Part shown: piece after piece, positions 38,808 through 55,559 of the stretch
Numbering within the stretch: position 1 is the stretch's first letter
Layout: each line of letters begins with the position of its first letter
From: Halorientalis litorea
GTDB taxonomy: Archaea > Halobacteriota > Halobacteria > Halobacteriales > Haloarculaceae
NCBI RefSeq assembly: GCF_023028225.1
Contig: NZ_CP095482.1
Location: forward strand, 1,302,001 to 1,366,000
Direction of reading: 5' to 3'
Length of the DNA stretch: 64,000 nucleotides
Notes under the pieces: generated by a model
The model's input: only the letters and a program-made list of their open reading frames with translations
Databases searched by the model: none
What the model was told of the DNA's origin: nothing
Position numbers and translations under genes: made by a program

Positions 38808-38864
38808 GCCCATCAATCCGAGAGCGACGGGGAAGAACCTTGCCCATCTAAATTTTACTTCGTC

Positions 38865-38887
38865 GGGTCGCGGCTCTGCCGCGACCC
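38865..38887. repeat. Perfect hairpin, 10-bp stem with 3-nt loop
   Basis: GGGTCGCGGC, TCT, GCCGCGACCC. It lies 58 nt upstream of rpl18a, close to its probable TATA box, and belongs to the same tight-loop class as the hairpins at 49 kb and 55 kb. Confidence 0.8.
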
Positions 38888-38997
38888 CTCCTCCAAAATT
38901 TAGTACAAAACGACCTGCTGGCTCGCTGGCTCACGGCTCCGCCGTTCGCCGTCCGAGGCACTCCCTTCGGTCGCGCCTCGCTCCGCTCCCCAGCAGT

Positions 38998-47113: not shown

Positions 47114-47188
47114 GGGCACGTAGCTCAGTCCGGACAGAGCGTCGGACTTCTAATCCGATGGCCGTGGGTTCGAATCCCATCGTGCCCG
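47114..47188 (+). tRNA. tRNA-Arg (anticodon UCU)
   Basis: The 75-nt sequence folds into a full cloverleaf: acceptor GGGCACG/CGTGCCC, D stem GCTC/GAGC, anticodon stem TCGGA/TCCGA with loop CTTCTAA (anticodon TCT reading AGA), variable TGGCC, T stem GTGGG/CCCAT with TTCGAAT loop. Discriminator base is G and no CCA is encoded. No intron. It is flanked by AT-rich DNA upstream and a T5 run (CACCTTTTTCC) immediately downstream. Confidence 0.97.
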
Positions 47189-47200
47189 TCCACCTTTTTC
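47189..47200 (+). terminator. Oligo-T terminator of tRNA-Arg
   Basis: TCCACCTTTTTCCG starts right after the discriminator base; T5 run directly downstream of a tRNA. Confidence 0.55.
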
Positions 47201-47258
47201 CGCTCGGGCGCACCTTCGGCGCACCACTCGCGAAAAAACGTGGGCGAAAAATGCGCGA

Positions 47259-48612: not shown

Positions 48613-48888
48613 TTACGCCGTCTCGGCTTCGACGACGCTCTCGCCCTCTTCCTCGAAGCGGGCCGCACGGACCCGGAGCTTGCTCGGCGGTTTCTTGCGA
48701 CCCTGTTCCCAGATAGCCTCGTTGATAGAGGGGTCGAGTCGAACCTCGTCTTCCGAGACGCTGAAGTTCTTGGCCAAGTGCTCGCGGAGGAGCGTCATGG
48801 CCTTGTCCGCACGCTTGTGCTTTGCCTCTGCCTTCGCGTCACGGAGCGGGACGGTGATGACTCGCTCCTCGAAGTCGCTTGCGCTCAT
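48613..48888 (-). CDS. rpl31e: Ribosomal protein L31e
   Basis: A 91-residue large-subunit protein ([79 protein letters not shown]). It sits near the peptide exit tunnel in archaeal ribosomes. Its start overlaps the rpl39e stop by 1 nt. The acidic C-terminal tail is a haloarchaeal adaptation. Confidence 0.97.
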
Positions 48889-49040
48889 TATTCGTCAGTG
48901 TCGCTCCGCCGCCAGTTGCGGCGCTTGTGGTTGCGCGTCACGTCGCGGTCCGTCTTCATCATGACCCACGCGGGCATCCGCGAGTTCTGTCGGTCGAGTT
49001 TGGCGAGTCGCTTCTTCTTCGCCTTCGACTTCTTACCCAT
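48888..49040 (-). CDS. rpl39e: Ribosomal protein L39e
   Basis: A 50-residue, highly basic protein ([50 protein letters not shown]) lining the exit tunnel; too short for many gene finders. [20 protein letters not shown] is invariant in the family. First gene of rpl39e-rpl31e-eif6. Confidence 0.97.
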
Positions 49041-49065
49041 AGTGCAAGTCTCTACCTCGCCGCGG

Positions 49066-49074
49066 CTTAAATTT
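49066..49074 (-). promoter_or_regulatory. TATA box of the rpl39e operon
   Basis: Minus strand AAATTTAAG, 26 nt before the ATG at 49040. No ribosome binding site intervenes, so the operon is probably leaderless. Confidence 0.65.
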
Positions 49075-49103
49075 GTGTTCTTTCGCACCCACCTTTTTCG
49101 AGT

Positions 49104-49314
49104 CGGGGTTTCCTCGCTCACTTCGTTCGCTGCGGGAACCCCGATGACAAAAACGTCCCCAGAAATCGGAGATTTCTGGTGGGTGGTTCGAGAGACGCCG
49201 GACGGCGTCTCTCGTCATCCCGAAAGGCCTCGCCTTTCGGACGACTGCGCAAGAGCTTCGCTCTTGCGAACGTGGGCGAAAAAGGCCGCGAGCGCGCCAC
49301 TGGTGCGCTCGCGG
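49104..49314. repeat. Chain of six consecutive hairpins
   Basis: Stems in order: 49104-49143 (10-bp arms with one mismatch, 20-nt loop), 49159-49179 (CCAGAAATC/GATTTCTGG, loop GGA), 49189-49214 (12-bp CGAGAGACGCCG, loop GA), 49220-49240 (CCGAAAGGC, loop CTC), 49248-49268 (CGCAAGAGC, loop TTC), 49286-49314 (10-bp CCGCGAGCGC, 9-nt loop). Four are perfect, with centres 28-33 nt apart. They differ in sequence, so the structure rather than the bases is repeated. Confidence 0.85.
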
Positions 49315-49322
49315 GTGCTGTG
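49273..49322 (+). repeat. 50-nt dispersed repeat, copy 1
   Basis: Begins TGGGCGAAAAAGGCCGCGAG and ends GCGCTCGCGGGTGCTGTG. It matches the reverse complement of 55454-55503 at 46 of 50 positions. It contains the sixth hairpin of the chain. Confidence 0.85.
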
Positions 49323-49397
49323 CGCGTCCGCTCCCGCGCCACCCGCCCCCGCACCGCGACAGCGACCGCACTCCGTACCCGCCAGCCACCGCGCCCG

Positions 49398-50213
49398 CTA
49401 CCCGCCGAGGAACGCCAGTGGCACCATCACCACGATGCCGACGACGAGGCCGGAGACGAGTTCGCGGTAGCCGCGGCCCGGGAGTCCCGCGCCGCGGTCG
49501 AGTGCTTCGGGGATGAACTCGGTGAGGACGAGAAACACCATCGCGCCCGCGGCGAACCCGAAGCCGGCGGGCAAGAAGTCACGAGCGATGCGGACGAACG
49601 CGAAGGCCAACACCGCACCGATTGGCTGGGGGAGACTGGAGAAGACGGCCCACCAGACCATCCGCGGCGGGGAGACGCCCATCGACTGCAGCGGAATGGA
49701 GATGGCGACGCCTTCGGGGATGTTGTGGATGGAGATGGCGATAGTCATAAACAGTGCGAGGATGGGGACGACGAACGGGCCGAGCGTGAGGCCGCCGGCG
49801 AGGTTCAGTTCGGCGAAGGAGACGCCGACGGCGACACCCTCCGGGAAGCTGTGGACCGTCAGCACCCCGAGTATCAACACGAGTTTCTGGAAGTCCGCCT
49901 CCGCGTACTCCTTCGGGTCGAAGTGATGGTCGGAGATGAGGCGGTTCGCGACGACGACCAACACGACGCCCGCGAGCAACCCGCCGACCATCAACCACAC
50001 GTCGAACTGTCCGTCGGCCTCCGCCAACCCCTCCATCACCAACCCGAACACGGACGCAGAGACCATGATGCCCGACGCCAACCCCCACAGCACTACCTGC
50101 AACCGGTCGCTCACGTCCTCGATGAAGAAGAACGGGAGCGCGCCCAACCCCGTCGCCAGCGCGGTTACGAATCCGGCAACGAACACCAGCACTAGGTTGG
50201 CTAGCAAGCCCAT
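49398..50213 (-). CDS. ZIP-family metal transporter
   Basis: The 271-residue membrane protein has eight predicted spans and both ZIP metal-site helices: VLTVHSFPEGVAVGVSF (fourth span) and IAISIHNIPEGVAISIP (fifth span), with the conserved HS/HN-x-PEG. A His/Asp-containing loop (SDHHFDPKEYAEADFQ) before the fourth span may sense metal. It would import Zn or Fe. ATG at 50213 has a TATA-like TTCTTATGCC about 27 nt upstream on the minus strand, so I prefer it to the more distal start. Confidence 0.92.
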   Translation of the reverse strand: MGLLANLVLVFVAGFVTALATGLGALPFFFIEDVSDRLQVVLWGLASGIMVSASVFGLVMEGLAEADGQFDVWLMVGGLLAGVVLVVVANRLISDHHFDPKEYAEADFQKLVLILGVLTVHSFPEGVAVGVSFAELNLAGGLTLGPFVVPILALFMTIAISIHNIPEGVAISIPLQSMGVSPPRMVWWAVFSSLPQPIGAVLAFAFVRIARDFLPAGFGFAAGAMVFLVLTEFIPEALDRGAGLPGRGYRELVSGLVVGIVVMVPLAFLGG

Positions 50214-50357
50214 ATATCGACGCTGTGTGTGCGCGGGCATAAGAATCATCGCGAATCTGATTATTTCGGCTGGCCTAAACCCACGGGACCGGTGGCCGGA
50301 ACTCGGCGGCCGCGGTCCGACATTAAACGTCCTTAGTCACTGACCGCGTGTGAAGGG

Positions 50358-55453: not shown

Positions 55454-55503
55454 CACAGCACCCGCGAGCGCACCGGCGGTGCGCTCGCGGCCTTTTTCAC
55501 CCA
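55454..55503 (-). repeat. 50-nt dispersed repeat, copy 2 (opposite orientation)
   Basis: Reverse complement of the 49273-49322 element with four differences, all within or near the hairpin loop or its 5' arm. It lies 52 nt after the sufS stop. Confidence 0.85.
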
Positions 55504-55519
55504 TGGTTTTGCCGCGAGC

Positions 55520-55540
55520 GGTTCGCGCGGAGCGCGAACC
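55520..55540. repeat. Perfect hairpin, 9-bp stem with GGA loop
   Basis: GGTTCGCGC, GGA, GCGCGAACC. It lies 17 nt from copy 2 of the dispersed repeat; at 49 kb a 9-bp hairpin (49248-49268) is similarly next to copy 1. Confidence 0.8.
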
Positions 55541-55559
55541 CGAGCGGGAAAAAGATGGG

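Follow-up and report, generated by a model that had tools for sequence, protein, structure and literature searches.

The intergenic region between rpl39e and a ZIP-family transporter gene of Halorientalis litorea, located in a stretch of 64,000 nucleotides analysed here (the window), probably serves as a bidirectional transcription terminator or insulator at gene ends, with T-runs facing inward from both flanks. The six hairpins of this region are the most elaborate and expanded example in the window of a dispersed element of the form CCACS-TTTTT-[palindrome]-AAAAA-SGTGG. Comparison of copies displays a shared frame around a palindrome of varying sequence. An earlier sequence-only reading had described the hairpins as a regular array, and missed that this array is one copy of a dispersed family, in which the T5...A5 frame and not the hairpins is the constant part.

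Architecture of the array

CCACC-TTTTT and AAAAACGT bracket hairpin 1, four perfect hairpins follow after AAAAACGT, and AACGTGGGCG-AAAAA-GG then completes the double-run end of the array frame (Table 1). AAAAA at 49149-49153 is the A-run of the core frame, and CGTGGGCG-AAAAA-GG at 49271-49285 is the second A-run end of the array frame. On the minus strand, the single-T end reads AAAAAGGTGG and lies 49 nt upstream of the rpl39e start codon. A 9-bp repeat (CCTTTTTCG/CGAAAAAGG, 49092-49100/49277-49285) is predicted to close the whole array into one branched structure. Hairpin 6 may be a terminator-like hairpin for the ZIP gene, judged by its position before CC-TTTTT on the minus strand.

Table 1. 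Features of the rpl39e/ZIP region and further copies of the element in the window (positions in the window).
Feature	Position	Strand	Basis and remarks
rpl39e (50 aa)	48888..49040	-	ORF; gene downstream of the array
ZIP-family transporter gene	49398..50249	-	ORF; upstream of the array; family name as called in the sequence-only reading
TATA-like TTTAAG, putative rpl39e promoter	49067..49072	-	Sequence; ~27-32 nt ahead of ATG
Single-T frame end CCACC-TTTTT, inward-facing	49089..49098	+	Sequence; congeners carry the same end
Hairpin 1, core palindrome GGGGTTTCC...GGGAACCCC, imperfect, internal loop	49104..49143	.	Predicted fold
AAAAACGT, right end of core frame	49149..49156	+	Extra hairpins inserted after it
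Hairpin 2, perfect 9 bp, loop 3, triloop GGA	49159..49179	.	Compensatory variants in relatives
Hairpin 3, perfect 12 bp, loop 2	49189..49214	.	
Hairpin 4, perfect 9 bp, loop 3	49220..49240	.	
Hairpin 5, perfect 9 bp, loop 3, triloop TTC	49248..49268	.	Five variants, all fully paired
AACGTGGGCGAAAAAGG on +; CC-TTTTT-CGCCCACG-TT on -	49269..49285	-	First T-run of the ZIP transcript
Hairpin 6, imperfect, 14-nt arms 93% complementary	49286..49314	-	Directly upstream of CC-TTTTT on the - strand
Second window copy of the element	47190..47243	+	R1 50.5 bits, E 3e-14; starts 2 nt after tRNA-Arg(TCT) 47114-47188
Third window copy	55501..55558	-	R1 61.3 bits, E 8e-18
Fourth window copy, divergent	38848..38903	+	R1 26.1 bits, E 5e-6

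Four successive perfect stems with centres about 30 nt apart, flanked by a fifth and a sixth stem, had been reported from the letters of the region. Their coordinates were confirmed: stems of 9, 12, 9 and 9 bp with loops of 3, 2, 3 and 3 nt occupy 49159-49268 at centre-to-centre distances of 32.5, 28.5 and 28 nt, and both flanking stems (49104-49143 and 49286-49314) are imperfect. Stems of at least 9 bp with loops of 2-4 nt number four in 49089-49314, far above the mean of 0.013 and the maximum of 1 obtained from 1000 dinucleotide shuffles. Folding z-scores of the array are -8.9 (plus strand) and -8.4 (minus strand) for RNA and -9.4 for DNA.

Hairpins 3 and 4 together form a 61-bp segment that is missing from a sister copy at C1:1271319-1271479. 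Elsewhere in the own genome, and in relatives that include a member of another genus, the insertion point after AAAAACGT is occupied by hairpins 2 and 5 alone.

A dispersed family with a shared frame

With 360 bp spanning the array as query, the own genome gave 12 further matches (the longest 192 bp at 88% identity), and a search of relatives gave matches in 29 of 39 genomes. In the own genome there are 11 occurrences of the frame pattern and none of a reversed-pattern control; the pattern is present in 60 of 292 Halobacteria genomes, mostly Haloarculaceae. On one side of the element a second T-run is usual (TTTTT-CGCCCACG-TTTTT); with 47 occurrences, the octamer CGCCCACG is the spacer met most often between double T-runs. 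The double run (TTTTTCGCCCACGTTTTT) is found in 61 of 96 Haloarculaceae genomes with up to 29 copies, and its reversed control in none. A covariance model (R1) built from 26 element copies identifies 44 copies in the own genome, 35-75 in each of the seven remaining genomes of the genus, 3-65 in sampled Haloarculaceae outside the genus, and generally few elsewhere; at the array itself it gives a weak match to the core (49091-49156).

While T-run termination at gene ends is already known in archaea, the palindrome between facing T-runs appears to be undescribed. We found no description of it in the open-access literature searched. The element is widespread among, yet apparently undescribed from, salt-loving archaea. 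Some copies stand in tandem: G021:C1:2703788-2705384 holds ten head-to-tail copies of a 171-bp unit, each made of one T5...A5 element and ~110 bp of flank. The own genome (C1:1685305/1685456, C1:2268621/2268784) and others have shorter runs, with copies spaced at 148-192 bp.

Placement relative to genes

Gene context was evaluated in samples of five genomes and in fetched loci, using our own codon-based gene calls. Pairs of T5...A5 were counted over ~1.9 Mb from four genomes with the same kind of gene calls, in stretches that, two 20-kb pieces aside, were unselected. Of the inward T5...A5 pairs, 12 lie between convergent, 24 between tandem and 3 between divergent genes, divergent regions making up 35% of the bases; two of the three divergent cases have no palindrome, and the third lies directly after a tRNA-Arg. 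Perfect hairpins as a whole also track 3' ends: per kb they amount to 1.75 in convergent, 0.94 in tandem and 0.40 in divergent regions, densities that are biased by loci partly chosen for holding elements.

Elements sit at 3' ends of genes: the single-T end often lies 4-9 nt past a stop codon or 37-58 nt ahead of the next start, and other copies directly follow a tRNA or border the next promoter on its upstream side. In the sample, CCACCTTTTT occurs 73 times in intergenic and once in coding sequence, and coding sequence is nearly devoid of both CCACCTTTTT and TTTTTCGCCCACG. The framed palindrome is present at only a minority of gene ends, and it faces either way with respect to tandem genes (25 vs 13). 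Since tRNA-Arg(TCT) is followed by a complete T5...A5 element 2 nt on (47114-47243), the elements probably end tRNA transcripts as well.

Retention of the frame and replacement of hairpins

Orthologues of rpl39e are 80-84% identical in congeners, and the rpl39e promoter aligns among them. At this orthologous site, most congeners retain the T5...A5 frame with one to four hairpins of differing sequence. Among the congeners read, only G004 has no frame at the rpl39e locus, and in the other sampled Haloarculaceae genera the element is absent at rpl39e. Two other loci likewise retain the frame together with a locus-specific spacer (GCCCGAGC/GGCCGAGC), and the hairpins differ. The tRNA-linked copy at G000:C1:1583988-1584486 has an orthologue in G003 that was independently expanded to three perfect hairpins inside T6...A6.

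Differing arms with the same geometry had been taken as a sign that structure is maintained, and the relatives bear this out with compensatory changes on both arms. The lack of compensatory substitutions and the absence from close species that would have refuted that reading were not observed, as most congeners have hairpins at the same framed site. The framed element yields a covariation score of 0.305 (0.082 for shuffled and at most 0.060 for slid alignments), and three column pairs of the inner stem are 100% Watson-Crick with 38 double changes. The inserted double hairpin is 100% paired; all six variable pairs (6/6) changed on both sides, with no half-changed pair. Two irregularities are retained below the inner stem: a tandem mismatch, C.T/T.C (read as G.A/A.G on the complementary strand), which is invariant, and a bulge of one nucleotide. 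Recombination at the shared frame has probably carried hairpin cassettes from copy to copy; selection, hairpin-templated copying at the DNA level, or both would keep them perfect. The family offers a natural case of fast turnover of stem sequence with self-complementarity kept.

A probable two-sided terminator as best explanation

In reporter tests in Haloferax volcanii, termination reached 95% of transcripts with T5C and 59% with one hairpin motif (PMC7237163). U-tracts are recognised by aCPSF1 (FttA) in archaea, and a T-run alone is held to be sufficient for termination without a hairpin (PMC8716108); hence, the hairpins of the element need another reason to exist. As the T-runs face inward from both flanks, we propose that RNA polymerase would be released before crossing the palindrome from either side, and that the hairpins may act as back-up stop or pause sites for polymerase that reads through. 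The ZIP transcript (minus strand) would first encounter the G+C-rich hairpin 6 and TTTTT (49283-49279), then four further hairpins, then the second T-run (TTTTT, 49153-49149) and hairpin 1, before reaching the edge of the rpl39e promoter. Transcription in the opposite direction would meet CCACC-TTTTT first.

The sequence-only reading had offered an RNA processed from the ZIP 3' region, protein-binding cruciform DNA, and a barrier shielding the rpl39e promoter. The barrier fits best of the three because members of the family are found only at gene 3' ends and promoter edges, and because their T-runs are of a type that terminates transcription in Haloferax (PMC7237163). The architecture of the element, its dispersion, its position at 3' ends, its compensatory evolution and the exchange of hairpins inside a retained frame are seen directly in the sequences; that the T-runs terminate transcription here, with help from the hairpins, is what we infer. 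Against a terminator count the reported sufficiency of a bare T-run in archaea, the frameless locus of G004, the genera with no element at that place, and the small share of gene ends that are framed.

Archaeal T-run terminators (T5C in Haloferax volcanii, PMC7237163; U-tract/aCPSF1, PMC8716108) resemble the element in a T-run downstream of genes, often T5C, and in a hairpin near the 3' end at a fraction of sites. What sets the element apart is a pair of T-runs that face each other across a palindrome, with the fixed CGCCCACG spacer in the double run. Published accounts of archaeal termination find no required hairpin (PMC7237163, PMC8716108), and a survey of 343 genomes described archaea as mostly without terminator hairpins (11% of tail-to-tail regions; PMC1852404). 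Bidirectional intrinsic terminators of bacteria (TransTermHP, PMC1852404) likewise combine a palindrome with A- and T-runs at gene 3' ends and are densest between convergent genes. However, their order is A-run, G+C stem, T-run, whereas the present element is inside out, with a T-run before and an A-run after the stem on each strand: in convergent and tandem regions, a single outward A5...T5 pair was found vs 36 inward pairs. Bacterial hairpin-cluster terminators (PMC8355165) also line up several hairpins after a stop codon, but they belong to a bacterial polymerase, and neither a T5...A5 frame nor a dispersed family of fixed frame is reported for them.

The usual account of archaeal termination is one of bare T-runs with no hairpin; the family described here pairs T-runs and palindromes, in an order opposite to that of bacteria. 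Its distances from stop codons, tRNAs and promoters are predictable, and a role of hairpins in archaeal termination is therefore directly testable. The element also offers compact bidirectional insulators for haloarchaeal genetics.

Alternative explanations

The elements may form a distinct Haloarculaceae class of inside-out bidirectional terminator/insulator, whose cassettes are exchanged between dozens of copies within the T5...A5 frame and restored to perfect complementarity by a hairpin-templated process at the DNA level; the hairpins would then act or arise as single-stranded DNA with DNA-optimal triloops, and not as ordinary RNA terminator stems. We put this forward tentatively, as a somewhat doubtful proposition. 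Triloop dominance, the symmetry of GNA and TNC loops (28 and 28 on the sense strand) and the mixed orientation relative to genes favour a DNA-level or strand-symmetric feature.

It appears unlikely that we are dealing with a non-autonomous mobile repeat (MITE-, SMR- or REP-like) that prefers gene ends and has its hairpins as transposition structures. Copies are indeed dispersed, with 88-89% identity to the array over 162-192 bp at two other sites of the own genome; the extra hairpins occupy a single exact insertion point and have AACGT on both sides; tandem runs exist, such as the ten copies of the 171-bp unit in G021; and haloarchaea hold many transposase-free repeats (PMC3119063). However, only the frame is conserved between copies, while the stem sequences, unlike those of REPs or MITEs, are not. 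Boundaries match a stop codon, promoter edge or tRNA end within a few nt, and orthologous sites have kept the same frame, down to the locus-specific spacer variant. The lack of the element at rpl39e in some genera and the AACGT flanks may be signs of mobility; no strain-level insertion was seen. MITE, SMR and PATE elements of haloarchaea (PMC3119063) are also short and dispersed, with inverted ends or palindromes and no coding capacity. They conserve their sequence, whereas here the ends (CCACS-T5/A5-SGTGG) are conserved, the stems of the interior vary freely, and placement follows gene boundaries. REP/REPIN sequences (PMC3116915, PMC3733652) share extragenic palindromes and possible arrays, but are conserved in sequence and carry GTAG/CGTC tags; in the present element the stems differ between copies, the ends are T-runs, and an alignment of 26 copies has neither a GTAG nor a CGTC tag conserved at either end.

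Selection on an RNA fold, with the array as part of the ZIP transcript (either its 3' UTR or a small RNA processed from it), would be consistent with the strong folding (z about -8.5) and the covariation. In one-mismatch stems of tandem regions, G-T exceeds A-C by 22:9 on the sense strand (p = 0.03), which weakly favours RNA. Nevertheless, only one such case lies within framed elements, and the equal numbers of GNA and TNC loops contradict pure RNA selection. Every variable pair of the inserted hairpins changed on both sides with no G-U intermediate, hairpin number and sequence vary among congeners, and Rfam 15 covariance models give no match in 49041-49400 up to E = 5. As element orientation does not track gene direction, the processed RNA is unsupported as a general explanation, and we consider a structured RNA quite improbable.

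Palindromes extruded as cruciform or hairpin DNA, which would bind a protein or absorb supercoiling with the T-runs as AT-rich aids to extrusion, are very improbable: the density of hairpins peaks in convergent regions, where positive and not negative supercoiling is expected, and we know of no protein that binds these palindromes. The loops would suit such a role. Loops of exactly 3 nt dominate (72 of 96 in convergent and 101 of 187 in tandem regions), triloops are present at 24 of 41 hairpin+T sites, compared with 3 of 28 such sites in E. coli (p = 5e-5), GNA and TNC make up over half of them, and d(C-GNA-G) loops are unusually stable in DNA. The conserved tandem mismatch C.T/T.C and 1-nt bulge point in the same direction.

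Three further candidates were rejected. A direct-repeat or CRISPR-like array does not agree with the unrelated arms, and no direct-repeat family spans the array. A ZIP/rpl39e structure specific to this locus and conserved family-wide does not agree with the absence of the element at rpl39e in other sampled genera. Assignment of a strand from the tandem mismatch (G.A on one strand) is ruled out by the mixed orientation relative to genes.

Among intergenic hairpins of the own genome and relatives, three-base loops dominate, largely GNA or TNC closed by C-G, and the same stem is found with its loop in both orientations (GGA or TCC). A box, AGCACAGCA, is rare overall and present in few copies; in several of these (e.g. 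G000:C1:1287569-1287745) it stands on the gene strand ~31 nt ahead of the first T-run and precedes the terminator hairpin. A variant of this box is located at 49315-49345 of the window.
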